Made by a program: the position numbers and the translations under genes. A stretch of DNA of 48,547 bases from a virus, in IMG/VR virus record IMGVR_UViG_3300025099_000034, positions 1 to 48,547 of that record. One strand, 5' to 3'. The notes beneath the pieces are model-generated. The model was not told where the DNA came from. It did not search any database and saw only the letters and a list, made by a program, of their open reading frames with translations. Every line of letters starts with the position of its first letter. Position 1 is the first letter of the stretch. Positions 13,319 to 43,265 of the stretch are shown piece after piece.

Positions 13319-15109
13319 TTACGGATAGCTTTTCATTACATCGCTCTCTACTGCAAACAGTTCCGTAGCCTGAGTATTAAAGTTCGTGATAGTAAATATA
13401 CAATAATGTCCTAGTAAACCATGAGATTCAGCCTCAGAACTTTTAATAAACAAAATGTATGGGTCGTTTAGCGGAAAAACAACTGTGTCAGCTGCGGTCG
13501 TACTTACTATTAATTGGTTTATGCCATTAGGTAAGTCTACATTTATTTGAGTAACCACACCACCAAAAGTAACATCGGTATATTGTGGTAGGGAGTGGTA
13601 TACATAATCTCCGACACTTATAAAGCTACCTATAGAAACGAGGGGGTTTGTAGAAAAGCTTAGTGTAGTTGTTCCTTGATTTATAGCTACGTTTGAAGTC
13701 TTACCAATACCATTAGCTGACCTCATAGCGTATTGTCCTTTTAACGCTGGCACTTCACCTCTTTGTCTGAGGTAAGTAAACCAAGCTCCTTCTTTCTTTT
13801 CAAACCATCCGTCTTCCATAAAACCATTTATCTGTATATCTGTTTCAAGATAAGATTCCCAAGCATCATTAGATTCTAGGTTTAATGTTTTGTAAATTTT
13901 ATTTTCTAGTGGATTCTGATTAAAAACACTTGTTAATTGTGAATGATATTGCTCTCCATAATAATTGTTTCTTTTTTCATTTACATTGTGTTGAAATAAA
14001 TTACCACCTTGAAACGTGTAAAAAAAGTTATTCATACCTATCATATACTCAGGTATATAAGAATAAAATGACGGCCAACCTTTAGAGTTTTGACTATAAC
14101 TTACTGTCCATTCTGTATTAACAGGGGATGGTATAGGCGGGACTACACTTGGAGGTGTAGGCGCTGGTGTAGGAGGTGTAGGCGTTGGTGGATTTGAAGA
14201 ACCACAATTTGCATCAAACCTTAAATTGTTTTCACCTAAAAAATACTGACCGTTTGTAGACTCTGGATATAATGTTTGATAACTTATAGTTCCAAAGTCT
14301 TGATTTACATTTAATGTAATTGTCCCTGAATAAAACGAATATGTGTTTCCATCTAAACCAACAGCATTTTTTTCTAATTTAGTTCCTGTATAAGATATTG
14401 CATTTTCTAATCCATTATTTAAAAAAGCAATAGGCCATTCTGGTGTAACTCCAGTTATTTGATATATCCCTGTGTTAACTTTATAAATACCCCACTCACC
14501 ATTTATAACATAAAAACTTACTGAAGTATCAGGTAAATTTAAAACATCAGGAAATTCTGTTGTATAGGTAGAAACCGTTAGAGAGTTTGTAAAACTTAAA
14601 CAATATTCTGCAGTACCGGGTGGAGAAGGGGGGCTAGGCGGAGTAGGTGTAGGCGCTAAACCTGCGGCACAAGTAGCACAATCAGAATAAGATGTGTTTG
14701 GTAAATCTAAATAAGAAATATTTGTTGTGCTTACGCCATTAGTCCAACATATACCTTGATAAGGTATTGTGTTTGGCCATCCTGTAAAACTGGCTGGCGC
14801 TCTAAATATTTGTTTCTGACTTGAGGCATTACAGTTTTCATATTCATAGTAAATAAAACCTTCAAGTGGGTCAGGGTTTGCATTACCACACTTAGTAAAA
14901 CATTCTTTTTCTTTATCAAACCACTCGCCTCCTAATGAATTAGGAATTATTTGTGCAGTTTCATCAAGACAATAAGTTTCAAAAGTATTAGCAGGTACAT
15001 CTATTTGTATAACATTACCGTCACAACATGTTACAAACCATGAACATATCGCTGTTTCACTACCTACTGAATCAATGGGACACGAAAAACGTATTGACTT
15101 ACAAGCCAT
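13319..15109 (-). CDS. Cys-rich fibre/adhesin with Pro-rich linkers and cupredoxin-like domain
   Basis: A 596-residue modular protein. Residues 1-150 hold Cys-rich segments ending in CATC (144-147). A Thr/Ser-Pro linker (about 152-165) follows, then a beta-rich domain (about 195-300) similar to one in the fibre at 41166-42578, a second Pro-rich linker (about 307-330), and a C-terminal domain of about 265 residues with no recognised family. In the shared domain the residues matching copper ligands in the other fibre are replaced (Trp225 for His; no Cys-x2-His-x2-Met). Cys modules and Pro linkers match those of the 897-residue fibre across the intervening oxygenase and glycosyltransferase genes. 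Probably a virion adhesin; receptor unknown. Confidence 0.65.
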   Translation of the reverse strand: MACKSIRFSCPIDSVGSETAICSWFVTCCDGNVIQIDVPANTFETYCLDETAQIIPNSLGGEWFDKEKECFTKCGNANPDPLEGFIYYEYENCNASSQKQIFRAPASFTGWPNTIPYQGICWTNGVSTTNISYLDLPNTSYSDCATCAAGLAPTPTPPSPPSPPGTAEYCLSFTNSLTVSTYTTEFPDVLNLPDTSVSFYVINGEWGIYKVNTGIYQITGVTPEWPIAFLNNGLENAISYTGTKLEKNAVGLDGNTYSFYSGTITLNVNQDFGTISYQTLYPESTNGQYFLGENNLRFDANCGSSNPPTPTPPTPAPTPPSVVPPIPSPVNTEWTVSYSQNSKGWPSFYSYIPEYMIGMNNFFYTFQGGNLFQHNVNEKRNNYYGEQYHSQLTSVFNQNPLENKIYKTLNLESNDAWESYLETDIQINGFMEDGWFEKKEGAWFTYLRQRGEVPALKGQYAMRSANGIGKTSNVAINQGTTTLSFSTNPLVSIGSFISVGDYVYHSLPQYTDVTFGGVVTQINVDLPNGINQLIVSTTAADTVVFPLNDPYILFIKSSEAESHGLLGHYCIFTITNFNTQATELFAVESDVMKSYP

Positions 15110-15154: not shown

Positions 15155-16570
15155 TTATAAACCACCGCCCCAATTACCAGTGCCGTAGTGATATGTTTGA
15201 ATAAAATCAAAATTAAATTTTCCTACAGGATTAAACTGAGCGTAAGGTAAAACTTTATGAGGTATATTGTTTTCTTTTACAAATTTAGATAATGCAATAG
15301 GTCCTACTATTTGCCTAACAAAAGTACCTAAAGGTTTGCCTTCTATTTCCTTTCTGTTTAGAATGTCGGTCAAATTATTTTTAATATCTACTTTTAAAGA
15401 TTCTAAAAAAATATTCCATAAATCAGAAGGTGGAGATATTATAAATCCATTTTGATAGTCTTCATCTCCAGCGGAAGATTCTAGCAGATATATAGAGTGA
15501 CTATCTAATTGTTTTGTAAAGTCATTGTAAACTTCAAAATCCATATCACATATAACACCTCCAATATCTCGTGCTATTAAATATCTTACGAAATCAATTT
15601 TATATATAACAGGGCATTGATTTAATATTTCATAAAACTCTTTATCATATCTCATTAAGTAGGTATTAATTCCTTCTCTATCACACCATTTGTTTCTTTT
15701 GTAACCTTTGATTGTGTCCCAACTATAATCACATCTAAACCATTCTTTACTCCATCGGTTTTTGTCCTGTGGAGCAACTTGATGTATTATGTTTGGTCTG
15801 TACTTTGTTCCGTATAATTTGTTAAAATCTTCAATAGTTCGCACATCATCTTTTAATCCCACTAAACGTGGTGTGCCTTGGTTGGGATGATAAGCTTGCC
15901 TCTGATTAGATTTATCGTACAAATGATATATACCTGGATAAGGTATATTAGTAATATCATATCCAGCTAAAAAAGTATTGAATGTAGCATAGGTTTCTTC
16001 AAAATACATATCACCTTTTTGAACATATATATCTAAATCAAGCACAGATATATCACTAAAAAAATATCCAGCAGCTATTGTGCTTGGCCCTAAATATTTT
16101 TTTTCTTCTACTCCTTGCGCTCCTGGCCAAAACCTACCTTGTTTATCAATCTTATCTATTTTATTTATATAACAAGCATCCCAACTTTTTTTATCAGGCA
16201 GATAGTACATAGAAGGGAAACCACTGAACACTACATTTCCCTCATAATCATCAAGATGGTTTATTAGTTTTTGGTCAAACCCTTTATCAAACCTCATGTG
16301 TGCATCAACTTGTAAATAATATTTATGATGAGGTTTTACATAATTACGTATTTGTTCTCTTGCCCAGACTACTCCATTAGTTCTTTTGTAGCTACTATAA
16401 ACTTCTGTAACATTCTGATAGTTTATGTTTTCAGGATATTCACTTTGATTGAATATTATAATATCTAGATTATCTTTATTGCCAGCGTTATCTATTAAAC
16501 TCTCTATTGTTTTTTTTACTTCATCATCACAATAAGAAGCAACAGAAATTAATAACTCTGGTTTTTTCAA
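15155..16570 (-). CDS. Two-domain glycosyltransferase: GT60/PF11397-like plus GT32-like
   Basis: A 471-residue protein with no signal peptide or membrane helix, so cytoplasmic. Domain 1 (about 5-215) starts L-I-S-V-A-S-Y and contains YYLQVDAHMRF (84-94), the D-x-H metal/sugar-nucleotide motif of the PF11397 GlcNAc-transferase family. That family includes the Dictyostelium Skp1 hydroxyproline GlcNAc-transferase and trypanosome mucin GlcNAc-transferases. Domain 2 (about 258-380) starts P-N-I-I-H-Q and has KIDFVRYLIARDIGG followed by CDMDF with the DxD at 342-344, as in GT32 capsular/mannosyl-type transferases. One chain could therefore add two sugars in sequence. It lies one base downstream of the dioxygenase gene and between two Pro-rich fibre genes, so modification of fibre hydroxyprolines is the favoured inference. 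Lipopolysaccharide or other phage proteins are alternatives. Confidence 0.8.
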   Translation of the reverse strand: MKKPELLISVASYCDDEVKKTIESLIDNAGNKDNLDIIIFNQSEYPENINYQNVTEVYSSYKRTNGVVWAREQIRNYVKPHHKYYLQVDAHMRFDKGFDQKLINHLDDYEGNVVFSGFPSMYYLPDKKSWDACYINKIDKIDKQGRFWPGAQGVEEKKYLGPSTIAAGYFFSDISVLDLDIYVQKGDMYFEETYATFNTFLAGYDITNIPYPGIYHLYDKSNQRQAYHPNQGTPRLVGLKDDVRTIEDFNKLYGTKYRPNIIHQVAPQDKNRWSKEWFRCDYSWDTIKGYKRNKWCDREGINTYLMRYDKEFYEILNQCPVIYKIDFVRYLIARDIGGVICDMDFEVYNDFTKQLDSHSIYLLESSAGDEDYQNGFIISPPSDLWNIFLESLKVDIKNNLTDILNRKEIEGKPLGTFVRQIVGPIALSKFVKENNIPHKVLPYAQFNPVGKFNFDFIQTYHYGTGNWGGGL

Positions 16571-16571
16571 A

Positions 16572-17846
16572 TTATATTATTTTATAATGTACATAAAAGT
16601 TTCTAAAATAAGTTCCTCCAAAAGGCTCTTCTCTTCCGTGTTCACATATTGCTGACTCATACATAATCATATCTCCTGGCTCAGCATACACTTTATACCA
16701 TTCCCCATCATGACCTTGAATATCTAAAGGCCAGTCATCAGACTCTGGCTTGTTTGCACATCCACACGCTAAATCCTTGTCAACTATAATAATAGAACTT
16801 ATGTGGTGGGTTTCGACCCTGTCGTAGTGTTTTTCAAGAGTAGCTCCTTTTTTATACGACCTTATACCATAAATAAAAGATGGCTCGATGTCTTGGTTGT
16901 TAATCCAGTTTTGATGTACTGGTAATAATTGATTATGGATTAAGGTTCTTATGGAAGGTAAAGCATCGAGTGATAATATCTCTGTATCTCCTCCTTTAAT
17001 AATATTTTCTTTTCCGTCAAAAACTTCATTTACTCGTTTGTCTTTTAATATGTTGTAAGAATCATTAATTATATTCCAGGTTTCTGCTGGACATTTTTGT
17101 ATAGCAAAACCTAGTTCAGTAAATTTTGGAATTTGTTCTTTAGATGTAAAAATTTTAGGTTTTGTTTCTATAGCAGGTTTGCTTTCTTTTTTAGTTAATT
17201 CAGAAGCTTTGACTATATATGATTTTTTATCTTCTACTTTTTCTTCCTTCTTTTTTTCAACGGAATCATAATACATTTTTTCATCGCTAGCCCCATTCCA
17301 GTTTTTTTCTCTCCACCATGAAGTCACTACATACTTTTTACCTTCATCAACTGTAACACCTTCGTGTAAATATTGCTCTTGTGTTTTCCCATCTTTCATG
17401 TTATACCACCATGAAGCTTTGCCTGTCTCAGGCTCTACGGTTTTTTGTAATGTAGGAAAGTATGTGCCTCCTCCTTTATAGTCATCATTTAAATATATCA
17501 TTAAAGTATGAGTTCTATTTCCAGATGCTTTGCAGTGCATGTCATAAGCAGGGCCGCTAAAAAAATCATTATGTGGTTTAAAGTATTGACCAGGTTCATA
17601 TAGTTGACCTTGAAGTGCTTCTCCTTTAACAAGTTCTAAACCTAAAGTGTCGGCTATTTGTTTTTTTATTTTAGACATTATAGGAGTGTTCATGTCTAAA
17701 TTAGATGTGCTTGATGTTCTATGATTAGTAACATCCGTTCTGTCAGTACCCCCTACTACTACTGATGAGCGTGAATGATTTGCGTCAATCATTTTAATAA
17801 GTTCTTGACACTCCTCAGGTGTAATAAAATTATGTATTTCCTCCAT
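16572..17846 (-). CDS. Tandem 2-oxoglutarate/Fe(II) dioxygenase, prolyl-4-hydroxylase type
   Basis: A 424-residue protein with two oxygenase domains joined by a Lys/Glu-rich linker (about 196-240). Domain 1 (1-185) resembles prolyl 4-hydroxylases: QLYEPGQYFKPHNDFF gives the iron ligands His92 and Asp94, the distal ligand is His161 in YLHEGV, and Lys170 or Lys171 would bind 2-oxoglutarate. GGGTYFP before the distal His is typical of the family. Domain 2 (about 240-424) has H-Y-D (His340, Asp342), distal His403 in CEHGREE and Arg415, so it also looks catalytically complete. Known relatives hydroxylate proline or other residues using O2, Fe and 2-oxoglutarate. The gene lies between the 897-residue Pro-rich fibre and the glycosyltransferase, which makes fibre prolines plausible substrates. 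The substrate is inferred. Confidence 0.85.
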   Translation of the reverse strand: MEEIHNFITPEECQELIKMIDANHSRSSVVVGGTDRTDVTNHRTSSTSNLDMNTPIMSKIKKQIADTLGLELVKGEALQGQLYEPGQYFKPHNDFFSGPAYDMHCKASGNRTHTLMIYLNDDYKGGGTYFPTLQKTVEPETGKASWWYNMKDGKTQEQYLHEGVTVDEGKKYVVTSWWREKNWNGASDEKMYYDSVEKKKEEKVEDKKSYIVKASELTKKESKPAIETKPKIFTSKEQIPKFTELGFAIQKCPAETWNIINDSYNILKDKRVNEVFDGKENIIKGGDTEILSLDALPSIRTLIHNQLLPVHQNWINNQDIEPSFIYGIRSYKKGATLEKHYDRVETHHISSIIIVDKDLACGCANKPESDDWPLDIQGHDGEWYKVYAEPGDMIMYESAICEHGREEPFGGTYFRNFYVHYKII

Positions 17847-17899: not shown

Positions 17900-20593
17900 C
17901 TATGGACAAATTGTAGATGTACAAGATAATGTAAATGCTGAACCATTCCAGTATCTATAATAGCTACCAGTATTATAGTATCCCGCTAAAGCGTTTCTTG
18001 TTCCTGCGCTATCTCTATATAACAACGTTGCTGTACAGAAATCTGATGTATTCATGTAGAACGTAGCGTAACCACTACAAGTAAAACTTGTTGTGCTAAT
18101 AAACTCTAAATTAATAGCCGGGTAACTAGGCGCAGGTGTCGGACTAGGTGTTGGACTAGGTGTTGGACTCGGTGATGGGCTAGGCGATGGGCTAGGCGTA
18201 GGCGTAGGCGATGGACTCGGTGATGGCGTAGGCGTAGAAGCTAGACATGTAGCACAACTATTATAGATACTTACTGCAGTGTTAGAATTTATTGTACCTA
18301 CACTTCCGCCATATAAATAACAATGTCCATCTGCCATTAACAATGATTGTCCTTCAAACAATATTTGAGTTGTAGCCACATTAGTAAATGTTCCTGCACT
18401 TCCATCACATCTATCAATATCATAGTAGTAAACCGATTGAGTAGGAACTGGACTAGGACTTGGACTAGGTGTTGGACTAGGACTAGGTGTTGGACTAGGA
18501 CTAGGTGTTGGACTAGGACTAGGTGTTGGACTTGGTGTCGCTGGTGTACATCCACCACAACTACTTTGCACTGAAACAGTTGTTACGCTACAATCACTCA
18601 CAGTGTTTACAGCTATAATTTCCCAACATTTTGTTCCATTAAATCCTGAACCACAAGAACCTCCGCCGCCTCCACTAATTTTAAGCGATATACCAATTGC
18701 ATTAGAAGCATAAGTTCCGGTCACAGTTACAAATGCAGTTGAACTAGAATTATTACAATCTCTAATTTGAATATTAGTAGTTGGCGGTGGCGTTGGCGCT
18801 GGAACTGGACTTGGTGTTGGAGTGGCACACGTAGTTATAGCTTGAACAACCCCTGTCGAAAGAATTAAATATTTATCATTTGATGGTTGCGGTAAATACC
18901 CCTGTGTATTTGAAATGCTATACCATTCTAAACCTCCGTTAAACACAGTGGTTTTAGAAGAGTTCACATATAATGTATCTCCAACAATTATTTGACCAAC
19001 TGTTGCTCTATCAGAGAACACAAAGTAATCTGTTCTTGCATTACAAGCCGCAGCTTCAGTATAACCTTGCTGAGGAAGAGCATTAATAAACATTGATGGG
19101 TTTTCACAATCTAAACAGTTATTAAAACTACTTAAAGATTCTACATCAACACTTGATGTCGCAGTAGTTGAAACAGGATTAGAGTAACAAATGTTGTTGT
19201 ATTTTATAAAACTAGGGAAACTAGCTGTTGTGCTTTGTTTTCTAAATACCGCTGTTGTTGATGTTTGACATTCAGTATATGTAGCATAATCATAAACCGG
19301 TGTTGCTCCACATCCACCACAACTACTATATGCAGAGTTTAATACAGCAGATGAATCATAAGAAGTTGCAGCATTATCAATTATTTCCCAACAAGTTGAG
19401 CCAGTAAACTCTGGGTTTGGCGCACTAGCAGCACCTGTTATTTCTATCACTATACCATTAGCTAAAGTTGGCGCTGTTAAACCTGTAACTCTTACTTTGT
19501 AAGTTGGTGTTGTAGTAAAACATTGTCTTATTTCAACATCTTGGAATGTAGCAGCAGCTGGAGCTGGTGTTGGACTTGGTGTTGGAGTACAATTTACAAC
19601 TGCATCAACAGCACCTAATGAATTAATCAGTAAAGCATACCCATTATCTAAGTTTGGATAATGACCATTTACGTTTGTTACACCATAGAAATTCAATCCA
19701 CCATTCCACACATTTGTCAATCCTGAATTTGTATATATAATATCTCCTGTTTGTATTGAAGCGACATTAGCTCTTGAAGTATACATACTGTTAGTTGCTT
19801 GCGCAACACACGCAGTAGCTGAGTTTCCTACTCCATTACCCACTGTATATGTGGAAAATATTTGTGTTCCACTTACAGCTGGTGTTGGACTTGGTGTAGG
19901 TGTTGGACTAGGCGTTGGACTTGGACTCGGAGTTGTAGCCTCACAAGTAGCACAATCAACGTAAGTGTCCACAATATCATTAGTACTTGTCAAGCTTGTT
20001 GTTGAAGGATTTTCATAACACAAGTTACTATCCTTAACAACAGCTGGGAATGAGCTACCTGAAACTTTTCTAAATACTTTAGTAACAGAAGTTCCACACA
20101 CATTGTATTCTCTGAAATCATAAGTTACAGTAGGCACAGGCGTTGGAGTCGGACTTGGAGTCGGACTTGGGCTTGGGCCTGGAGCAGGAGTCGTACCACA
20201 AGCAGCACAATCAGTATAGCTAACAAGACCATTTACATTTATAGTAGAAGTTAATCCAGTAGCTTGAGGATTGTAATAACAAATACTATTATAAGATACA
20301 GAAACCGGGAAAGTTCCTCCTTGAACTATTCTAAACACTTCATCACTAGCTATGCCATCACACGCCGTATACACTCTATAATCATAAACAACTGGAGTTG
20401 GCGTCGGTGTAGGTGTTCCACAATTTGGACAATCATCTTCTGCAAACAAAACACCTGAGGCTTGCTGCCTTACAATTGATTGGTCTGAATACCAACCGTC
20501 AGAAGCAAAAGTAGTTAGAGCTGCATCTGTAAATAATGCTGTAGCCGTAGAAAAACTTGCTGAGCTATAATAATATGTTCCTGTTGTTGCCAT
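17900..20593 (-). CDS. Modular Cys-rich fibre/adhesin with (Ser/Thr)-Pro linkers
   Basis: An 897-residue protein built from about nine small beta-rich domains of roughly 50-90 residues. Several of them are clear copies: Y-D-(Y/F) starts, an F-R-K or F-R-I core, a (Y/N)-x-(I/L)-C-Y-x-N-P string and a closing C-x2-C. Others form a second type with TYTVGN/NGGL(N/E) and a GYLP-like string. Domains are separated by seven linkers of Ser-Pro, Thr-Pro and Ala-Pro dipeptides, the two longest near the C-terminus. It resembles bacterial surface adhesins with disulfide-stabilised beads on a stiff, possibly glycosylated string. It follows the tail hub-like gene, whose C-terminus carries the same module, and precedes the dioxygenase and glycosyltransferase. 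Receptor-binding fibre is the likely role; no homologue with known receptor is recognised. Confidence 0.65.
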   Translation of the reverse strand: MATTGTYYYSSASFSTATALFTDAALTTFASDGWYSDQSIVRQQASGVLFAEDDCPNCGTPTPTPTPVVYDYRVYTACDGIASDEVFRIVQGGTFPVSVSYNSICYYNPQATGLTSTINVNGLVSYTDCAACGTTPAPGPSPSPTPSPTPTPVPTVTYDFREYNVCGTSVTKVFRKVSGSSFPAVVKDSNLCYENPSTTSLTSTNDIVDTYVDCATCEATTPSPSPTPSPTPTPSPTPAVSGTQIFSTYTVGNGVGNSATACVAQATNSMYTSRANVASIQTGDIIYTNSGLTNVWNGGLNFYGVTNVNGHYPNLDNGYALLINSLGAVDAVVNCTPTPSPTPAPAAATFQDVEIRQCFTTTPTYKVRVTGLTAPTLANGIVIEITGAASAPNPEFTGSTCWEIIDNAATSYDSSAVLNSAYSSCGGCGATPVYDYATYTECQTSTTAVFRKQSTTASFPSFIKYNNICYSNPVSTTATSSVDVESLSSFNNCLDCENPSMFINALPQQGYTEAAACNARTDYFVFSDRATVGQIIVGDTLYVNSSKTTVFNGGLEWYSISNTQGYLPQPSNDKYLILSTGVVQAITTCATPTPSPVPAPTPPPTTNIQIRDCNNSSSTAFVTVTGTYASNAIGISLKISGGGGGSCGSGFNGTKCWEIIAVNTVSDCSVTTVSVQSSCGGCTPATPSPTPSPSPTPSPSPTPSPSPTPSPSPSPVPTQSVYYYDIDRCDGSAGTFTNVATTQILFEGQSLLMADGHCYLYGGSVGTINSNTAVSIYNSCATCLASTPTPSPSPSPTPTPSPSPSPSPSPTPSPTPSPTPAPSYPAINLEFISTTSFTCSGYATFYMNTSDFCTATLLYRDSAGTRNALAGYYNTGSYYRYWNGSAFTLSCTSTICP
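18120..18245. repeat. Short tandem repeats coding for a Ser/Thr-Pro linker
   Basis: Within the 897-residue fibre gene the DNA repeats ggactaggtgttggacta-like and ggcgtaggcgatgg-like units. On the minus strand these encode alternating Pro with Ser or Thr. Such imperfect 6- to 18-base repeats are prone to slippage and unequal recombination, so linker length may vary between relatives. Confidence 0.7.
18446..18538. repeat. 18-base tandem repeat coding for a Pro-rich linker
   Basis: At least three near-perfect consecutive copies of the 18-base unit tgttggactaggactagg are visible, flanked by partial copies. Reading the minus strand they give a Ser-Pro/Thr-Pro linker in the fibre. The same unit, slightly altered, occurs in the other linker at 18120-18245. 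Confidence 0.8.
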
Positions 20594-20617: not shown

Positions 20618-23600
20618 TTATCCTGAACATCTTGAGTCTCCACATCCTGCTACCTGAACTATTACTTCTCCATTTTGTCCTGACCCTCCTACATCATATA
20701 ATGATGCACAACCATTAGTTGAACCAAATTTATATTGAACCTCATCACCAACTACAATTCCTAATGTTTGATTTGCTTTCAAATAAACTGCTTGTAAGCT
20801 TACACAATCTATACCTAAGAAATAATCATATACTGGTGCAGGCGCTGGTGTAGGGCTTGGTGTTGGACTAGGTGTTGGGGCTGGAGTAAACGTACAATTA
20901 CAACACGAATCAAATATGCTTACCGCTGAATAACAAAGCTGCTGACCTATAGCGTTTCTTAAATCATAAATTAAATATAACTTATTACCATTAGCTGGTA
21001 AACCAAATTGAGCGCTATACAATGTAGGAGCGCCACTCGAATTTATTGGAGTTGCTTGCACAGATGCAGCTAATAATATACTTATATCAGTTGGATTATT
21101 TTCAAACAATGCATCAGTTCTTAAATATCTAAATTCATTTTCAGTAGGGTCAAACTGGAAGTTGTCAAAATTTAATTTATTACTTCTCATTGTAATAACT
21201 GCTCCATCTGGAGGTATTACTCCTGAAGCTTGAGGGCCTTCTAACTCTCTGTATTGTGAAATTATCGGGTCGCTTGGACTTGCTAAAAATGTAACTAAAT
21301 CTGATTGTGTTGGAGAACTTACAGTTGAATCTGACCAACTAAATTCAGTGTGTGTAAATTGACCTGCGTTAGCATTTGTGCTAAGAGTAATACTGTATAC
21401 ACTAAACAACTCTTCTTCAGGACATTTAACTGTCACTTGAATTGTGTCGTTTACAATTGAATCAGATGAAATAATCATAACAACTTCAGTTGGAGTTGGA
21501 TTTGGTTTTGGAAACTTAAGCGTTCCGCTTTGATAAACTATACCTGTTGAATAAGTAACACCATCATATATTGCTTGAACTATATATCCTGTACCTGAAA
21601 CCTGTCCTTCTGTTTCAATATCTACACCTGCTTCTGAAACTATTTGTTGTTCAGTTCCTTCAGTTACTATTAAATCTGTATTTTCAAATGGAATAACATA
21701 ATCAATTTCAACAAAATATGTTTTTGATGGAGGCCCTGTTGTCTCTCCTAGTTCAACACAATAAACAAATTCTTGTCCTGCAACAATGGTAATGTTTTTT
21801 GTAACACCACAAGCAGTACATATTTCAGTCTCTGGTTTTACAATTGTATTAGTTGTAAACACATATTCTTGCATATAAGGGTCGTAACCTCCTAGTTTCT
21901 GTGTTGCTGATGCTTCTGCAAATAAATCTCTAAACCAACTTCTCATACCTTCATTAGATATTACAGTTAGTATTTCGTTTTGAGCAGAACTACCCGTTAA
22001 TTTTATTATAACGTTTCTTTTTGCATCAGAGAAATATTTATTTTCACCAAATGTTGCAAAACTTTCTGGGTGATTACTAATTCCAAACTCTTCTACTCTT
22101 GCTATTTGTGTGCCTAAAACTTCAGGAACGGAAGTAACTACACCACCTCCAGTAGCATCTGATAATAAATTTTTACCAGCAAGTACATAAGATATCTTGT
22201 CTTCTTGTAATACTAAAATATCTGTTTTTCTTGCAAATAATATCTCAACATCTCCATACGTTTCTTCAAGCGGCTTAAAGTTTACTAATCCTAAGTTAAA
22301 TTCATTTAATCTGTTTACATTTGATTCATCATTAAAGACACCACTGTATGTAATGTCAGCAAACCTGTGAGCTGCTTTAAATTCTTCGTTAGATGTTGTA
22401 AAAATTCTGTTTCCTAAATTAAAAGATTTACCTTTTATAGAGTCTCTAATCCTATAGCTTTCAACACCGTTTCCAAAACTATAACAATTTGTAAATCCAG
22501 GGTTTACAATTGCTGATTGAAAAGAAGTTTGGTTTTGTACATTTCCTAAATGTAGTCCATTACTAATATCAAATGATTGACTGTTTTCATACCAGGCATC
22601 TGGTAAAGCGTCTTGTGCTTCAGTTTCAAACACATAAGTAGCTCCATCACCTCTATATACAGTAAATGAAACTTCAAGCATAGATTCGGTATTTTCTGTA
22701 CCACCATAAGACAAAGGCCCAGAAACTAAAAGATATATTAAATTGTTTCCACTAGAGTCTTGCGTATTAGAGTCTTCATAAATTCTGTAATAAAAATTTT
22801 CATTAAAATCTAAAGGTGAAGGTGTACCTCCTCCAAAATAAGTAGAAGCATTTAGTTCAGATATATTTTTACAACCTTTATTTACATTAGCAGTTACAAA
22901 AGGAGGAGCTCCATTAGTAACCTGTGGTGAAACAAACGTGTTGTTTATGACTTGTTGTTGTCCTGGATTTTTTATTCCACTATTTAAAATACTAGCAACA
23001 TTATCACCAATAAACCAATTAGCCGCATTAGTATAACTAGTTGATGCTGTTAACGTTTGTTCAAGCGTATAATTCTGTCTTCCTCCTGCACCAGTTCCAG
23101 CTCCATTTCTCCTCATTTCTACCCTCATGACTATTCTACTTCCAACGGGAACATCGTAAACATCATAAGTAGAAGTTAAAGGAGCTTGTCTATTTACGGT
23201 TGTAAAAAAAGGAAACGCTACAGTAGGTATGTCGCCACTTGTAGTACATGTTTTTTTAATAGGGTCAATTGCAATAACAGCATTAGGGTCTTGTATAGAT
23301 GAAAAATTAGAAGCGTTTATCTTCATATAAACACCACCTATAACATCAACCGCAGTTCCCGACGCGTCAAATATAGATATAAAACCACTGGACTGAGCTT
23401 CTTTTTCTAAAACAGTTGTTCTTATACATCTAGTAGTTGGTCCTGTATTATCGGCCTTTACAATTAATGTGTCACCCGCTTCAACTTTAGCTGCATTTTC
23501 ACCATCTAATAAAAAGTAACTTGAACTTGAAACTGTGTCTCTATAAGCAACATTACTATAAATTGTTTCATAGGTGTCTTTAGTAGGTTTTACAACAAAT

Positions 23601-25579
23601 TTATATTTTGTTGCCCAAGCCGGAGCTTTCATTGATGGTGGTATTTCTACTTCTATATAGTTTCTGTCAATAGAATTGCTACATGGAATGTTAAATGAAG
23701 CTCCTGAACCTCCTGGAGCATTACTTACTAAAGCTGTTGATGCTCGGTTGTAATCATCCATGTAAATAATACCTACCTCATAACCTCTATTACTGTGTAA
23801 ACTTTCAGCGCTTGCGCTATCTCTAAAAGAAGCAGTTTCATTTACTATGCCCCAGTAAGCGTAACCTGATTGTGCTACTCCATCACTATAAAGAGCCGCT
23901 AAGTTTTGTATTTGTAAAACATTTGAGGAAGTACTTGCTGTAGCTACTAAAGATTGACCAGCGCTTGGAAACGTTGAAGTTGCAGAAGTTATTCCTGTTT
24001 GTAACAAGCTATAAGTAGAATCTAAATTTTCAGGCACAGTTCTGTTAAAGACATCTGTTAAAGTATTACCAAGTCCAGCTTGTGCATTGGCAACGGTTTG
24101 TATTGTTCCATTTACCCCATCAGTTCCTATCTTTTCTTGAAAATCTACACTATTAACAAAATCATAAACAGTAGTATAATCATCTATCAAAGTATAAGAC
24201 CAACTAAGCTCAAATATAGCTGTAGTTGGTGTTGGAGCTGAGCCAAAAACTTGTTCAAATTCAAAAAATGTTATACCAAAATTTAAAGTTAATCTTGTTC
24301 CTTTTTTTAATTTAGATTCACCGGTCATTAAAGGACTTAAGTCAACATATAATACTGAATCTGAAATAGATTTACTTGTAGATGTAGGAGTATATGTAAA
24401 TTGTCCAGTACTTGTGTGCGCTGATGTGTCAATAAGTGCTATAGGGTCTGACTTAAATGTTGCAGTAAAATCTAACTCTATATTAGCTCCAGCACTATCT
24501 TTCAAATCATACCCCTCCATGTAATTTCCATACATCAGCCTGTTACCCATTAAAGTTTGAGCTTTAGCTAACTGTGGAACATTATCAAAAAGTCTTAGAA
24601 TTTCAGAGTCAGGCAATACGGTAAATATTTCTCTATTTGTAAATTGATAATCCGTATTTGTATTGTTAATACTTCCTAAATCTTTCTTTTTGTTAAGAGT
24701 TTTTATAACTTTTATAGACGTGCTATCTGCTTCTTTAAACAATAACTGAACATCTGTTACACTGCTGCTACCAGTATTAAATGTAATTGAAACGGCATTG
24801 TTTTGATTTACCATTCCTTCATTTAAATAACTATTTGTGGTGAAATCAAAATTACCAGGCGTAAATGCTGGCTCACTAAACTGAGAAATAGCTGAAAATT
24901 CATTATTCGCATACTTATACCTGTAAGCAAAACATAAAAACTTATCTTCTAAATAAGCATCTGTAATACTTGAAACAAAATATGGTAATATTGTTGGAGC
25001 ACTTGTGGGAGGTTTTTTTATTACTAAAATATCATCCTGATTAAATACATCAACATTTACACCAAGTAAAGGGTCTCCATAATTTTGATTAATATTAATA
25101 ACTCTTGGAGGGTTAGTGTTGTCAGTAAAAAATAATAGATTATCTATTTTATCAACTCCTGTAATTAAGAAATTTGGGTTAAAGTTTAGCGTAGTGTTTA
25201 TGCCATTCCCGTCATTAATACTTATTACGTGGTATATTAATTGACCGGTTTCTACATCAAATGAAATTATTAAGTCTAATTTACCCGTAGCACCTTGAGT
25301 AAAAGCTGGGTCATGAACAAACCAATATAAGGCTAAATTAGCTCCATCTTCAAACGCACCAATACACCTAGCCTGTGAGCTCAATTTAGTTCCGTCAACA
25401 TATTGTAGTTCTGTTAGCGGTAAATTTCCTTTTGAATTTTCAACAGCACCAATCTCAGAATCTTCAGTAGAACCAAGTCTTACATTTACAGCATTTATAT
25501 ACTCTCCATTTGGGACAAGCCTTTCATCAAGGCTTTTATTCATACGGCCCGCTATAAAATTTCTCTGAATGTTTGCCAT
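20618..25579 (-). CDS. Tail hub/stabilisation-like protein with Cys-rich C-terminal module
   Basis: A 1653-residue beta-rich protein. The N-terminus (RNFIAGRMNKSLDERLVPNG, followed by N-A-V-N-V-R and E-N-S-K-G-N) matches a class of large phage structural proteins that begin like T7 gp12 or P22-type tail nozzle/stabilisation proteins, with a predicted beta-propeller start. It follows the two adaptor proteins, the usual place of the tail nozzle or hub. The last roughly 110 residues are different: a CCNC string, an Ala/Thr/Ser-Pro linker and a Cys-containing domain starting V-Y-D-Y, the same module as in the next fibre gene. The C-terminus may therefore dock or act together with the fibres. Structural role likely; exact position in the virion inferred. 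Confidence 0.7.
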   Translation of the reverse strand: MANIQRNFIAGRMNKSLDERLVPNGEYINAVNVRLGSTEDSEIGAVENSKGNLPLTELQYVDGTKLSSQARCIGAFEDGANLALYWFVHDPAFTQGATGKLDLIISFDVETGQLIYHVISINDGNGINTTLNFNPNFLITGVDKIDNLLFFTDNTNPPRVININQNYGDPLLGVNVDVFNQDDILVIKKPPTSAPTILPYFVSSITDAYLEDKFLCFAYRYKYANNEFSAISQFSEPAFTPGNFDFTTNSYLNEGMVNQNNAVSITFNTGSSSVTDVQLLFKEADSTSIKVIKTLNKKKDLGSINNTNTDYQFTNREIFTVLPDSEILRLFDNVPQLAKAQTLMGNRLMYGNYMEGYDLKDSAGANIELDFTATFKSDPIALIDTSAHTSTGQFTYTPTSTSKSISDSVLYVDLSPLMTGESKLKKGTRLTLNFGITFFEFEQVFGSAPTPTTAIFELSWSYTLIDDYTTVYDFVNSVDFQEKIGTDGVNGTIQTVANAQAGLGNTLTDVFNRTVPENLDSTYSLLQTGITSATSTFPSAGQSLVATASTSSNVLQIQNLAALYSDGVAQSGYAYWGIVNETASFRDSASAESLHSNRGYEVGIIYMDDYNRASTALVSNAPGGSGASFNIPCSNSIDRNYIEVEIPPSMKAPAWATKYKFVVKPTKDTYETIYSNVAYRDTVSSSSYFLLDGENAAKVEAGDTLIVKADNTGPTTRCIRTTVLEKEAQSSGFISIFDASGTAVDVIGGVYMKINASNFSSIQDPNAVIAIDPIKKTCTTSGDIPTVAFPFFTTVNRQAPLTSTYDVYDVPVGSRIVMRVEMRRNGAGTGAGGRQNYTLEQTLTASTSYTNAANWFIGDNVASILNSGIKNPGQQQVINNTFVSPQVTNGAPPFVTANVNKGCKNISELNASTYFGGGTPSPLDFNENFYYRIYEDSNTQDSSGNNLIYLLVSGPLSYGGTENTESMLEVSFTVYRGDGATYVFETEAQDALPDAWYENSQSFDISNGLHLGNVQNQTSFQSAIVNPGFTNCYSFGNGVESYRIRDSIKGKSFNLGNRIFTTSNEEFKAAHRFADITYSGVFNDESNVNRLNEFNLGLVNFKPLEETYGDVEILFARKTDILVLQEDKISYVLAGKNLLSDATGGGVVTSVPEVLGTQIARVEEFGISNHPESFATFGENKYFSDAKRNVIIKLTGSSAQNEILTVISNEGMRSWFRDLFAEASATQKLGGYDPYMQEYVFTTNTIVKPETEICTACGVTKNITIVAGQEFVYCVELGETTGPPSKTYFVEIDYVIPFENTDLIVTEGTEQQIVSEAGVDIETEGQVSGTGYIVQAIYDGVTYSTGIVYQSGTLKFPKPNPTPTEVVMIISSDSIVNDTIQVTVKCPEEELFSVYSITLSTNANAGQFTHTEFSWSDSTVSSPTQSDLVTFLASPSDPIISQYRELEGPQASGVIPPDGAVITMRSNKLNFDNFQFDPTENEFRYLRTDALFENNPTDISILLAASVQATPINSSGAPTLYSAQFGLPANGNKLYLIYDLRNAIGQQLCYSAVSIFDSCCNCTFTPAPTPSPTPSPTPAPAPVYDYFLGIDCVSLQAVYLKANQTLGIVVGDEVQYKFGSTNGCASLYDVGGSGQNGEVIVQVAGCGDSRCSG

Positions 25580-38045: not shown

Positions 38046-41000
38046 TTATGAGTGAACGTATGTTCCACTCCCTGTATATGTTAATATTGTATAATCTCCG
38101 TCTGTTGTTACTGTTGGGCTACCAGTTGTAGAGCTTGAATATTCAGATGTAAGTAATCTTAATATTGCTACTCCTGAACCACCTGAACCATTTGTCCCAA
38201 TTGAACCTGCTAATATACCTGCAGACCCTCCACCACCTCCACCACCGGTGTTCGCTGTTCCGCTTGTTCCGTTTTCTTGACCTGCAGTTGAATATCCTCC
38301 ATTACCACCTCCATCAGTTCCTGTTCCAAACGTTCCATCTCCTGAGCCAGCTTCTGGCCCTCCAGCTCCTCCACCACCAGCATATCCTACAGACGCACCA
38401 GTAATAGAAACACTAAGGCCAGCACCTCCGTTTCCTGCAGCAGAAGAAGCGTTTTGACCGGCAGATGATGCTCCACCACCTCCACCATTTACCTCTGAAT
38501 ACCCACCTAAATTTGTTCCGGTTCCACCAGCGAATCCTTGATTTGCTGTTCCAGTACCTGCTCCTTGATTTGTCCATGCACCTCCACCTGAACCTCCATT
38601 ACCTCCCGTTAAATATGCTGCACCACCTGCACCACCTGTTGCTCCACCACCACCACCTGAAGAAGTGATAGTTGTTATACTTGAAGCTGCAATAGATGAA
38701 TCAGTCCCTTTCCTTGAAGCAACTGTTGTTGCGGTAGTTGAACCACCTGTAGCACCAGCACCTACTGTAATTGTATAAGTGCCAGCTGATAAAGTTACAT
38801 CGCTTTCTGCAGAAGCCCCTCCACCTGACGTACTTCCATAAGATGTACGAAGTCCACCTGCACCACCACCAGCACCATAATATATTCCTGCTGCACCACC
38901 ACCTGCGACTACAAGGAATGACATATTACCTGCTAAAGGTCGTGGTGCTGGGTTTTCTTTAAAGGCCATGTAGATGTAAGTATCTCCATTATCATTTACT
39001 CCTTGCTGACTACCCATAGTCCAACCATCACTATCAAAACTTGATACTGTATTTGATTCGCTATCTTGTTGTGAATCTAAATTAGCAAATAATGTTTGTG
39101 GTGCAGATAAACCTCTTGCACTATCAAATATTCTCCACGAGTTAGAACCATTAATTTGTTTTATCATTAACCAATTTGGCTGAAAGCCAAGGCCAGTTAT
39201 AGATTGTGTACTGCTATTCCCAGTATAAGTTCCCATCTTGCTAAACCCGGATATAGAAGTAAAACAATACGCTATATAACTATCCGATGAACTACCTGAC
39301 AATGTAGTACCAACATTTATTACTGTTGCGGTTGGACTTGTTGAGTTCCAAATACTTCCACCTGACGAACCATTAACTATTTCAGCATCACTAGAATTTA
39401 ATTTAATAAAATTATAAGCAGGGTTTGTACCTGAATTTAAAAAAGTGCTAAAAGAATACCAATCACCACTTCCATTTAATCTTTTTGTAAAAATAATTTC
39501 TGGAGCAGAACCTAATCCATGTCCGACTGTAGAAGCTGACCCCGTTCCGTCCCATTTAACAATACTAATTCCAGCTGCTTGATTTGCGCTAACTATAGAT
39601 TGTATTGCTCCATCTGTATTTATAGTTGGAAGAGGATTAATTTTCCAGTTCCAAGCAACATAAGTTTGACCTGAAGTATTAAGAGCATTGTTAGCTCCTG
39701 TAGTCCATCCATCTGAATCAAAAGAGCTTATTGCATTTGTAGTGTTGTTTTGTGCATTAGTTTTATTGGAAGTTATTTGTTTTTCTGTCCCTCTTACAAT
39801 ATCAAACCAAGCATTGTCTTCAGTAGCACTTCTTCTTTTTGCCCAAACCCAAGACGGAGAAAACCCTAGTCCTGTGATTGATTGTGTACCACCATTACCT
39901 GAGTAAATTTTATTTGCAAAACTATCCGGTAAAGTTGGCGCAGCACTCGGGTCAGAACCAAAAGCTATGTATAAAAATGTTCCTCCATTAGCGTTTACTC
40001 CACCTCCAGAATCTGCTATTTGAAATCCATTAGATAAATAATTTACACTATATCCTGATGTAAGTTCAGTTTGCGTAAGGTTTGGAAAAAGTGTTTTATT
40101 TCTTGGATTAGTTGTGTTTCTTGCATTATCAGTCATAGACCAATTATCTGCACTATCTGTTCTTTTGATTATTACAAACGCAGGTTCAAACCCTGTGTTT
40201 ACAATTGGCCCTGTTGCTGAACCATTACCTGTATATGTGCCAAATTTAGAATATCCGGCTTTTTCTACAAAACAATAATTTATAAATTTTTTACCACTTT
40301 CATTATGAACTCTTTCTGCGCTTCCGCTAATATATACAACAGTGCTGCTTGGTAATTGGTTACCCCAATAATTACTATCTGTTTGTTTAGCGTCTTGCGA
40401 ATTAAACTCAAGCCAAGAACCAGCTGCACCAACAGCGCTACCACCAAGAAGCCAATTATTAGTTCCATAAGTTGATAGTGTATCAATACTTTTTTGTATT
40501 ATTAACTCTGGGGTAGAATTTAATCCATGTCCAAAACTTTCTTGAGATGTATTTCCATTACCTGTATACTCAACTATTGAAAAACCTGAAACTTGATTTG
40601 TTTGTACTGTACTTGTAATCGTTCCATCTGTATTACTACTTGTAGTTCCTCCTCCGGCTTTCCAACACCAAGCTACATAAGGCCCTCTTGCAGAATCATT
40701 AACAACACCTCCGCCATCTGCACCTAAAGTAAATCCATCACTATCAAAAGAAACAAAACCTGTTGGCCTATTTGTTTGAGCTGAGTTTGTGTTTGATGAT
40801 AAATCGTTACCTGCGCCTCTTGTTGAATCGTTTAATATATGGCTTTCACCATTACTTCTATCTTTTATCCAAACAAAGTCAGGCTTAAATCCTACACCTG
40901 TAATAGCATGGGTAGCACTTGTACCGTTATATAAAACCACATTAAAGTTCTCGCTTGGTACTGCTGGTAAATCTTCGAATTGTAAATCTCTCCATTCTCC

Positions 41001-41162
41001 TCCATCCCAAAACTCTACTAAGTTAGTAGTCGTGTTATATCTCCACTCACCTGTACTTGGACTTGTTGGTCTCTGCGCAGTAGTTCCACTAGGCAACTTT
41101 AAAGCAGAGTTTAAGCTTGCTAAGTCAAATAATTCCGGGTTTGTAATTTTTGTTGTTGCCAT
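38046..41162 (-). CDS. Tail fibre with six repeated beta domains and glycine-rich tip
   Basis: A 1038-residue protein. Residues 1-60 contain the collar-type motif G-T-T-A-Q-R-P and R-Y-N-T-T-T-N-L-V-E-F with W-R-D-L. Next come six beta domains in the order A-B-C-A-B-C: A at about 74-168 and 415-508 (G-x-G-F-x-P-x-x-V-W), B at about 192-302 and 529-636 (GHGL-x3-PE-(L/I)-I), and C at about 304-402 and 639-735 (F-G-T-Y/M-G-T-Y-T-G-N). These look like the concanavalin-like DUF7483 repeats of marine phage fibres. The last 290 residues are very Gly/Ser-rich, like receptor-binding tips of polyglycine type. The AB-C triplet seems to have been duplicated. Likely an adhesive fibre; receptor unknown. 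Confidence 0.75.
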   Translation of the reverse strand: MATTKITNPELFDLASLNSALKLPSGTTAQRPTSPSTGEWRYNTTTNLVEFWDGGEWRDLQFEDLPAVPSENFNVVLYNGTSATHAITGVGFKPDFVWIKDRSNGESHILNDSTRGAGNDLSSNTNSAQTNRPTGFVSFDSDGFTLGADGGGVVNDSARGPYVAWCWKAGGGTTSSNTDGTITSTVQTNQVSGFSIVEYTGNGNTSQESFGHGLNSTPELIIQKSIDTLSTYGTNNWLLGGSAVGAAGSWLEFNSQDAKQTDSNYWGNQLPSSTVVYISGSAERVHNESGKKFINYCFVEKAGYSKFGTYTGNGSATGPIVNTGFEPAFVIIKRTDSADNWSMTDNARNTTNPRNKTLFPNLTQTELTSGYSVNYLSNGFQIADSGGGVNANGGTFLYIAFGSDPSAAPTLPDSFANKIYSGNGGTQSITGLGFSPSWVWAKRRSATEDNAWFDIVRGTEKQITSNKTNAQNNTTNAISSFDSDGWTTGANNALNTSGQTYVAWNWKINPLPTINTDGAIQSIVSANQAAGISIVKWDGTGSASTVGHGLGSAPEIIFTKRLNGSGDWYSFSTFLNSGTNPAYNFIKLNSSDAEIVNGSSGGSIWNSTSPTATVINVGTTLSGSSSDSYIAYCFTSISGFSKMGTYTGNSSTQSITGLGFQPNWLMIKQINGSNSWRIFDSARGLSAPQTLFANLDSQQDSESNTVSSFDSDGWTMGSQQGVNDNGDTYIYMAFKENPAPRPLAGNMSFLVVAGGGAAGIYYGAGGGAGGLRTSYGSTSGGGASAESDVTLSAGTYTITVGAGATGGSTTATTVASRKGTDSSIAASSITTITSSGGGGGATGGAGGAAYLTGGNGGSGGGAWTNQGAGTGTANQGFAGGTGTNLGGYSEVNGGGGGASSAGQNASSAAGNGGAGLSVSITGASVGYAGGGGAGGPEAGSGDGTFGTGTDGGGNGGYSTAGQENGTSGTANTGGGGGGGSAGILAGSIGTNGSGGSGVAILRLLTSEYSSSTTGSPTVTTDGDYTILTYTGSGTYVHS

Positions 41163-41165
41163 AAT

Positions 41166-42578
41166 TTAGTTTTGCACGTATGTTCCGCTTCCTGTATATT
41201 TTAATATTGTATCAGTGCCGTCTGTTGTAATAGTTGGACTTCCGGTTGTTGTTCCTGAGTATTGAAATGTAGGTATTCTTAAAACAAAAACACCACCTGC
41301 TCCAGAACCACCATTTCCTCCACCTTTTGAACCTCCACCTCCACCTCCGGTGCTTGCTGTCGCATCACCAGCAGAGCCATTACCTGCGTCTCCACCTCCT
41401 CCAGTACCTCCGGTTGAACCAATACTTTGTCCACCTCCTCCACCTCCACCAGCATAAGTAACTGACGAACCTGTAATTGATACAGCTAATCCATTTCCTC
41501 CTTGCGCTCCTGAGCTTCCGCTAACTCCTGCAGCAGATGCTCCACCTCCTCCACCTCCTAACGAACCGTCTCTTGAACCACCGTCAAATCCTTCATTTGC
41601 TGTTCCTGACCCTATAGTACCAACACAACAACCAGCTCCACCACCCGAACCTCCACTTCCAGGGGCTACATAGTGTGATGATTGTTGTTGACCTCCACCT
41701 CTTCCACCACCAGATACAGAAAGAACCGTTGTGCTGGAATAGGCTAAAGAAGTAAGATTACCATTATTACCTCGACCAAGACCAGATGGCGAAGGTGGGC
41801 TTGGCACACCCCCCGCACCTATAGTTATTGTATATGTTCCGGCTGACAATTGAATTTGAGATTCAGCGCTTGCGCCACCACCTGATGTTGAACCGAATGA
41901 TGTTCTTAACCCTCCAGCTCCTCCACCACCAGAATTTTGTGCACTACCCCAAATACTTCCACCAGAACCTCCTCCACCAACAATTAAATAATCAATCAAA
42001 ATTGGAAGAGCAATATTGTTTATTCTTTTCCAATCCGTCCCGTTATAATATTCTTGACATGAAGCTGAACCTTCTGATGCTTCAGACGTAGTGTTTCTAA
42101 CCATACCAGCTACATCTGTAGCAGGTCTATTTAATGCTGTTCCTGTAGGAATTTTTAAACCTAAGTCTGAATGTAGATTTGTGTATATTAAATTGTTTTG
42201 TCCTCCCATGTAACCATGAACCTTACAAGCATAACTAACCACGTCAAAATTTCCACTTACCGTTATGGTAACATCTCCAGAATAATATGTATACGTGTTG
42301 CCGTCAGGCCCTGTTTGAGAACCCTCGTTTACTGCTCCTGTATAAGATATTAAAGAAGTCTTGCCATTGTTAAGAATAGCTATAGGGTGACTAGATGAAA
42401 CGCTGCTTAAAACATAAGTTCCATTTACCACACCATACAAACCATAAGCCCCATTAAAGTTATATTGATTTCCACCACCAGCATCTAAATAAGTAACTGT
42501 GTTTGTTGCCGCTAATGAATAGTCAGGCAATCCACCTCTTAAATCTACTACTTGTCCTCTTACTTTTGTTGTTGCCAT
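41166..42578 (-). CDS. Tail fibre with cupredoxin-like copper-ligand motif and glycine-rich tip
   Basis: A 470-residue protein starting MATTKVRG. Residues about 35-130 form a beta domain with SSHPIAI (His64) and SYACKVHGYMGG, giving Cys118, His121 and Met124. That His...Cys-x2-His-x2-Met spacing is the type-1 copper ligand set of amicyanin-like cupredoxins. A collar-type motif (I-P-T-G-T-A-L-N-R-P) follows at about 152-160, then a Gly-rich tip from about residue 198 whose start (GGLRTSFGSTSGGGASAES) is nearly identical to the tip of the 1038-residue fibre. Fibre role likely; copper binding is an inference from ligand spacing. Confidence 0.7.
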   Translation of the reverse strand: MATTKVRGQVVDLRGGLPDYSLAATNTVTYLDAGGGNQYNFNGAYGLYGVVNGTYVLSSVSSSHPIAILNNGKTSLISYTGAVNEGSQTGPDGNTYTYYSGDVTITVSGNFDVVSYACKVHGYMGGQNNLIYTNLHSDLGLKIPTGTALNRPATDVAGMVRNTTSEASEGSASCQEYYNGTDWKRINNIALPILIDYLIVGGGGSGGSIWGSAQNSGGGGAGGLRTSFGSTSGGGASAESQIQLSAGTYTITIGAGGVPSPPSPSGLGRGNNGNLTSLAYSSTTVLSVSGGGRGGGQQQSSHYVAPGSGGSGGGAGCCVGTIGSGTANEGFDGGSRDGSLGGGGGGASAAGVSGSSGAQGGNGLAVSITGSSVTYAGGGGGGGQSIGSTGGTGGGGDAGNGSAGDATASTGGGGGGSKGGGNGGSGAGGVFVLRIPTFQYSGTTTGSPTITTDGTDTILKYTGSGTYVQN

Positions 42579-42579
42579 A

Positions 42580-43263
42580 TTATTCTATTGTAGATTCTAC
42601 CAATTCCCAATTAATAATTTCTTCATTCCAAATATACGAATTTTCATCATCTGGATAAACTACTGGTGCTTCCCATAAACAAGTATCCTCATTTAAAGAC
42701 CAAGACCCAAATGGTTGTGGTGCATAAAAAGCATCTCTTACAGGGTCGTAAGTATACCCTACTCCTGCATAATTTTTTCTAAACGGTGTGCCATCGTTTT
42801 GGTTAACACCACCGTGTGTATTGTAGGAAGTTCTTTTGCATAGTCCACCTTTTCCATAATACCCTTCCCAGTAAACCGTGTTGTCTATAATTTCTGGCGG
42901 AAGTGCATGAAGCTCTTCTAGCTTTACTTGTATCTCAGCCTCAATCGCTGTAACTTCTTCTTGTGTTTTACCTGTCCTACTATCTTCTAAATCACTTATC
43001 TCTTGTTCTAGTGTTTCATCTCTAGCAGATTTCTCATAGGTCTCAGGCACTCCGGTTATAACATTGGTTACTATGCACAGCTGATTATTTATCTCTTGAT
43101 ACTTAGCGTCTATCTCTGCTTGCTTAGCTTCAATCGCAGCTGCATCTTCTTCAGTCGGTTGTTCAATAGAAGTAAGATTACCCATCTCACCCCATAATAC
43201 GTAGAGCTCTTCTCTTAGAGTTTCTGTTGTGTGGTCGTTATTTAAAAATGCGTAGTGTGCCAT
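42580..43263 (-). CDS. Fibre-associated protein, long MAHY-type paralogue
   Basis: A 227-residue protein. The C-terminal half (N-T-H-G-G-V, then T-P-F-R-K-N-Y-A-G-V-G-Y-T-Y-D, then W-S-L-N-E-D) matches a structural family of marine phages and the shorter protein at 37636-38013. Residues about 30-110 are an inserted Glu/Ile-rich coiled coil, partly repeated (AIEAKQAEIDAKYQEIN and AIEAEIQVKLEEL). It lies between two glycine-rich fibre genes and ends one base before the next. Possibly a fibre-linking or trimerisation protein. Confidence 0.6.
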   Translation of the reverse strand: MAHYAFLNNDHTTETLREELYVLWGEMGNLTSIEQPTEEDAAAIEAKQAEIDAKYQEINNQLCIVTNVITGVPETYEKSARDETLEQEISDLEDSRTGKTQEEVTAIEAEIQVKLEELHALPPEIIDNTVYWEGYYGKGGLCKRTSYNTHGGVNQNDGTPFRKNYAGVGYTYDPVRDAFYAPQPFGSWSLNEDTCLWEAPVVYPDDENSYIWNEEIINWELVESTIE

Positions 43264-43265
43264 TA

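Follow-up and report, generated by a model that had tools for sequence, protein, structure and literature searches.

The gene at 15155-16570 lies in a 48.5-kb contig of a marine phage (IMG/VR virus record IMGVR_UViG_3300025099_000034), here called the window, and encodes two glycosyltransferase-like domains in one chain. It is described here together with an adjoining oxygenase gene and the structural genes around them (Table 1). The gene is a single unbroken open reading frame (ORF) on the minus strand, and close relatives use ATG at the position of its TTG start codon. A preliminary description had pointed to an N-terminal YYLQVDAHMRF motif (residues 84-94) and a C-terminal GGVICDMDF motif (residues 337-345) as marks of two different glycosyltransferase families. 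Both are present in the intact frame, and their D-x-H and D-x-D residues are invariant: D89 and H91, as well as H216, across 29 aligned GT60-like rows, and D342 and D344, as well as H461, across 20 aligned GT32-like rows. Besides the window, 12 IMG/VR contigs from several samples have the fusion at 83-100% identity, one of which (L013) has an interrupted or low-quality stretch in this gene; a chimera artefact as its origin is ruled out by this recurrence. The ratio of nonsynonymous to synonymous substitution rates (dN/dS) is 0.07-0.09 for the GT60 half and 0.01-0.06 for the GT32 half, corresponding to strong purifying selection on both, which indicates that both halves are maintained.

The presence of two glycosyltransferase families was borne out by searches with profile hidden Markov models (HMMs), although not equally for each half. 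PF11397 (GlcNAc, GT60 type) matched the whole fusion (E 6e-14, 52.7 bits, curated cut-off 21) and also the N half alone (E 8.6e-15, 55.5 bits). The PF04488 (GT32 type) match of the whole fusion (19.5 bits) and of the C half alone (21.0 bits) did not reach the cut-off of 23; however, stand-alone relatives of the C half, of 206-215 aa and 38-59% identity, scored 30.7-39.3 bits. Hence, the HMM check that had been suggested for each half was positive for the N half and negative for the C half, which is named here GT32-like and not a member of the curated GT32 family. An N half belonging to a lipid- or lipopolysaccharide-modifying family, the assignment that had been set against the GT60 one, is not what was found, given the PF11397 match and the best structural alignment of the GT60-like domain model, which is polypeptide N-acetylgalactosamine-transferase T2 (GalNAc-T2, Z 18.6). 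The AlphaFold model of the fusion (mean predicted local distance difference test, pLDDT, 77.8; predicted template modelling score, pTM, 0.51) has two GT-A-like domains of uncertain relative placement, and its Foldseek matches include Mimivirus R699, human LH3 and Och1, the last being a GT32 enzyme. Sequence searches of the PDB with the fusion gave no usable match, and tblastn against isolated phages gave none at 1e-5, with a single weak XacN1 glycosyltransferase at 0.02.

Directly upstream of the fusion, with a gap of 1 nt, is a tandem 2-oxoglutarate- and Fe(II)-dependent (2OG-Fe(II)) oxygenase. Its PDB matches are prolyl 4-hydroxylases in 8/8 cases (best E 1.6e-25), including the green-algal (Chlamydomonas) structures 2jig and 3gze. 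The iron triad H92, D94 and H161 and the 2OG-binding K171 of its N domain are kept in 64/64 sequences, and the HxD, H and R residues of its C domain in 61-63 of the 64. By these matches and residues the gene is of the prolyl 4-hydroxylase type, and proline hydroxylation is its predicted activity. The preliminary description had likened the fusion to the Skp1 pathway without including this gene, and the likeness is strengthened by it, as a hydroxylase of this kind makes the Skp1 acceptor. At least 97 viral loci carry the hydroxylase, and no relative of it or of the fusion was found in bacterial or archaeal genome contigs by the patterns searched. Pairs of oxygenases and glycosyltransferases hypermodify DNA in other phages, and one matching PHROG family is labelled 'DNA endonuclease'; however, matches of that family fall on the oxygenase domain, which makes the label seem misplaced, and the oxygenase matches prolyl hydroxylases and not a nucleic-acid oxygenase family, which makes modification of phage DNA bases by the cassette barely credible.

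Regarding annotation, PHROG 2954 and 3531, labelled 'ferrochelatase', also match the oxygenase C domain (residues 294-421), with 2OG-Fe(II) oxygenase residues. The 'ferrochelatases' described beside 2OG oxygenases in the HTVC023P pelagiphages (PMC9599517) may be the same mislabel.

The window carries terminase, portal and virion genes with relatives in Flavobacterium elemo and Cellulophaga phages. Along the minus strand, the order is a large virion structural gene, the gene for a virion-region protein with serine/threonine-proline (S/T-P) tracts, the oxygenase, the fusion and a muzzle-like gene, the last recognized by a Crassvirus Pfam model. The three flanking structural proteins have 51, 5 and 2 [ST]P[ST]P motifs, compared with 1 in 22 other ORFs examined, and in the X-Pro repeats of the window, X is most often S or T. 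Synonymous codons are mixed within the S/T-P tracts, which rules out a simple DNA-repeat origin and points to selection on the protein. This arrangement bears on the possibility that the target of the cassette is a polysaccharide or lipid of the host surface, modified to exclude superinfection or mask receptors. Acceptors cannot be told apart by the GT-A fold, and many GT-A enzymes, including TarP and TarS of wall teichoic acid, score near GalNAc-T2 for the N domain; also, the gene slot of relatives described below has nucleotide-sugar enzymes and a carbamoyltransferase of the sort usual in polysaccharide or nodulation-factor loci. However, the genes are placed among virion genes, flanked by a muzzle-like gene and another structural gene, and their constant partner is a prolyl 4-hydroxylase, so that a host-surface role is regarded as very unlikely.

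Table 1. Features of the fused gene, the adjoining oxygenase and the candidate substrates in the window.
Feature	Position	Strand	Details
Fused GT60-like/GT32-like glycosyltransferase	15155..16570	-	471 aa, TTG start
GT60-like domain	15797..16570	-	residues 1-258; D89-A-H91 motif within 16289-16321; third metal-type His H216
GT32-like domain	15155..15796	-	residues 259-471; D342-M-D344 motif within 15536-15562
Tandem 2OG-Fe(II) oxygenase, prolyl 4-hydroxylase type	16572..17846	-	PF13640, 2.3e-14
Oxygenase N domain	~17271-17846	-	H92-x-D94, H161, K171
Oxygenase C domain	~16584-16967	-	H340-x-D342, H403, R415
Candidate substrate 1, virion-region protein	17900..20593	-	897 aa; seven S/T-P tracts, 51 [ST]P[ST]P motifs
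Largest S/T-P tracts of candidate substrate 1	18440-18547 and 18125-18235
Candidate substrate 2, tract in virion structural protein	20831..20887	-	TPAPTPSPTPSPTPAPAPV; residues 1565-1583 of the 1653-aa protein 20618-25579
Candidate substrate 3, muzzle-like protein	13319..15109	-	crAss_MUZ_C domain, PF25729, 9.6e-17
Pro-rich linkers of the muzzle-like protein	14615-14656 and 14147-14191

In relatives, the slot between the hydroxylase and the muzzle gene holds 0-4 genes, the kinds of which vary. The non-redundant cases include a GT32-like gene alone (10), the GT60+GT32 fusion (10), CL3 with a gene resembling hydroxyproline O-arabinosyltransferase (HPAT) (7), an O-fucosyltransferase-like (O-FucT-like) gene with a GT60-like gene and an epimerase (7), and a dehydratase-like (dTDP-glucose-dehydratase-like) gene with CL8 and an HPAT-like gene (5), while rarer sets include a radical SAM protein or a sugar carbamoyltransferase. 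The slot proteins CL3 and CL8 match no Pfam family, and HPAT-like refers to PF23452, found in the slot of relatives and not in that of the window. The HPAT-like protein in L167 matched PF23452 at E 1e-6 (28.8 bits, cut-off 23.9), and 9/15 HPAT-like members did so at E<=0.01 (best 4.3e-08), with the first member below the cut-off. A PDB search with the HPAT-like alignment gave no usable match, and the HPAT-like model, which had just weak GT-A matches to blood-group-type transferases, was not used as evidence. GT60-like genes without GT32 and GT32-like genes without GT60 both occur behind the same hydroxylase; the fusion therefore joins two enzymes that are otherwise apart in this slot. On the tree of w25581, a neighbouring virion protein, at least 12 changes of transferase type are counted (minimum possible 4), and L127 (O-FucT/GT60/epimerase) and L068 (fusion) have different cassettes next to an identical w25581 protein. 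Judged by these changes, the slot is a turnover hotspot in which predicted sugar-adding enzymes are swapped among phages.

Among these slot genes are a NodU-type sugar carbamoyltransferase (L175:9799-11235), an O-FucT-like gene (L127:19166-20224) and, in three contigs, a radical SAM/SPASM protein (L156:11236-12138) between the hydroxylase and the GT60-like gene. Additionally, a 310-kb phage contig encodes a 799-aa protein (L021:7998-10394) with a GT60-like domain (PF11397, 6e-46), a GT7-like galactosyltransferase and a third C-terminal region; by its domains, this is another multi-domain GT60 fusion, with a make-up unlike that of the window.

The hydroxylase and the X-Pro repeats were found together. 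At least 4 SP motifs are present in the structural proteins of 35/35 relatives with the hydroxylase (6-58 motifs) and of 0/8 without it (0-1 motifs, including a complete Manatee Spring genome). According to the tree, hydroxylase and repeats were gained once together in the main lineage, so these counts represent one event and not independent ones, and independent support comes from other phage backbones only. In 50/59 cases the adjacent gene upstream encodes an X-Pro run with four or more units, which is found in 5/1145 other proteins, a comparison of related sequences for which the p-value is not literal; 3 of these 5 sit on hydroxylase-carrying contigs. The hydroxylase module with X-Pro-rich proteins was found in about four unrelated phage backbones (L137, L138, the L244/L248/L256 group and L238). 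L137 and L138 have the same tandem hydroxylase (55-57% identity) and a stand-alone GT32 (57-59%) behind proteins full of APSPTAPTAP or TPQPQPQPQP, in modules that adjoin tape-measure-like genes; the large structural protein of the window has no homologue in L137 and a match of the repeat region only (29-38%) in L138. In the L244/L248/L256 group, a 194-aa or partial oxygenase with a single C-type domain occurs with an HPAT-like transferase and CL8 beside TPTPTPVPTAP-rich proteins, which suggests that this domain alone can supply the hydroxylation. L238 has the hydroxylase, an HPAT-like gene and a VPTPTPTVPTP-rich protein in a ribonucleotide-reductase neighbourhood.

The composition of these repeats also bears on whether the sugars are instead O-linked to Ser/Thr within the S/T-P linkers, the hydroxylase having some other target. 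This would agree with the prevalence of S and T as X residues in the window and with GalNAc-T2, the best fold match of the N domain, being a Ser/Thr polypeptide transferase; GT60 also includes a Trypanosoma cruzi polypeptide N-acetylglucosamine (GlcNAc)-transferase (PMC6939170). However, X is mostly Gln in L138, where the tract is mainly (QP)n, and largely Val in L165, where it is largely (VP)n, leaving few Ser/Thr, while Pro stays constant. As the X position can be filled by Thr, Ser, Ala, Gln or Val, hydroxyproline is favoured over Ser/Thr as acceptor. In addition, the hydroxylase and the transferases travel together across unrelated backbones and one slot enzyme resembles the HPAT family, and glycosylation of Ser/Thr is considered unlikely.

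The reading favoured here, and held to be likely, is that of a modular cassette for hydroxyproline O-glycosylation of phage virion proteins, with the fused gene as its sugar-adding part. Its basis is in sequence: both domains have intact motifs and are under purifying selection, the oxygenase is assigned to its family, gene order is conserved, glycosyltransferase types are swapped, and X-Pro repeats co-occur with the cassette. As a first step, the tandem prolyl 4-hydroxylase would convert prolines of the X-Pro repeats of neighbouring virion proteins, mainly the fibre-like protein at 17900-20593, to hydroxyproline in the host cytoplasm. The fusion would then act on the hydroxyprolines and attach two sugars by means of its two active sites, most likely in sequence to give a disaccharide, or otherwise with each active site adding one sugar at a different place. 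The resulting glycosylated, rod-like X-hydroxyproline linkers would be on the particle exterior near the tail, where exchange of the cassette would alter the glycan and, through it, recognition, stability or resistance to proteases. That the fusion adds two sugars is probable, and its earlier description as a possible disaccharide synthase is plausible, although it was sustained only in part, in the two families within one chain and in the Skp1 analogy. As GT60-only and GT32-only cassettes are found behind the same hydroxylase, each half may act directly on protein and may be able to add the first sugar, and the fusion may equally decorate two kinds of site.

Several observations weigh against the favoured reading, in addition to the single joint gain in the main lineage and the PF04488 match of the fusion itself, which is under the curated cut-off. 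The HPAT matches are weak and near threshold, several members falling short of the curated cut-off, and confidence in the HPAT-like model is low (pLDDT 65.8), with no clear fold match. In L258-L261 (17-122 kb), the hydroxylase is accompanied by HPAT-like and GT60-like genes, yet a long X-Pro run was not found. No glycosyltransferase is annotated near the more remote hydroxylases of Erwinia, Salmonella and Microcystis phages, indicating that the link between hydroxylase and transferase is not universal.

A broader proposal, for which the balance tips only slightly in favour, is that bacterial viruses glycosylate hydroxyproline by means of a portable set of X-Pro protein, hydroxylase and exchangeable glycosyltransferases, which crosses unrelated phages and changes the coat sugar, in a way similar to bacterial capsules, with the GT60-GT32 fusion as a one-chain disaccharide builder. 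No report of phage hydroxyproline glycosylation was found among the open-licence papers searched, which do not include most subscription-journal papers and preprints. If true, this would be a new type of virion modification, it would give a role to some of the many phage 2OG-Fe(II) oxygenases of so far unexplained role, and bacterial viruses would become a source of compact candidate transferases acting on hydroxyproline. It would also become possible to test what sugar-coated X-Pro linkers do in phage-host recognition.

Hydroxyproline O-glycosylation occurs in plants, algae and protists. Similarly to the phage cassette, the cytoplasmic Skp1 pathway of Dictyostelium and Toxoplasma has a prolyl 4-hydroxylase (PhyA), which makes the hydroxyproline, followed by a GT60 enzyme (Gnt1), which adds GlcNAc, and a two-domain transferase (PgtA), which adds two more sugars (PMC6939170). 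However, PgtA is GT74+GT2, whereas the phage enzyme is GT60-like and GT32-like; the substrate is Skp1, whereas the phage candidates are repetitive X-Pro virion proteins; and the phage transferases are swapped. No Skp1 match was found among the window proteins scanned against Pfam. By analogy, the phage cassette may work like the Skp1 pathway without being a member of it. The hydroxyproline-rich glycoproteins of green algae and plants, made with prolyl 4-hydroxylase and HPAT, resemble the phage system in their (S/T-P)n repeats, in the algal prolyl 4-hydroxylases matched by the oxygenase and in the HPAT-like sister cassettes, but they are modified in the secretory pathway by HPAT, whereas the window cassette would act in the bacterial cytoplasm with GT60/GT32-like domains.

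Mimivirus R699 and human LH3 and ColGalT1, which are among the top Foldseek matches of the fusion, belong to the glycosylation of collagen hydroxylysine, and these systems couple hydroxylation and glycosylation of a repetitive protein. There it is lysine that is hydroxylated, in Gly-X-Y repeats, and not proline, and the R699 and LH3 matches are of the general GT-A fold (whole-chain TM-scores 0.23-0.31). Among phages, glycosyltransferases encoded by mycobacteriophage Maravista have been suggested to glycosylate virion proteins (PMC11256854); in the abstracts covered here on glycosylated mycobacteriophages, unlike in the window cassette, there is no mention of a prolyl hydroxylase, X-Pro repeats or a swappable slot. 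In Synechococcus phage S-SCSM1, as in the slot sets, 2OG-Fe(II) oxygenases are accompanied by GDP-sugar enzymes, an O-fucosyltransferase and a carbamoyl transferase; its cluster is larger and lies in a tRNA-rich region, while the window cassette is between virion genes.

At the right end of the window, 38046-44222 encodes three Gly_rich_2 proteins, one of them also with DUF7483, which form a second likely fibre cluster.
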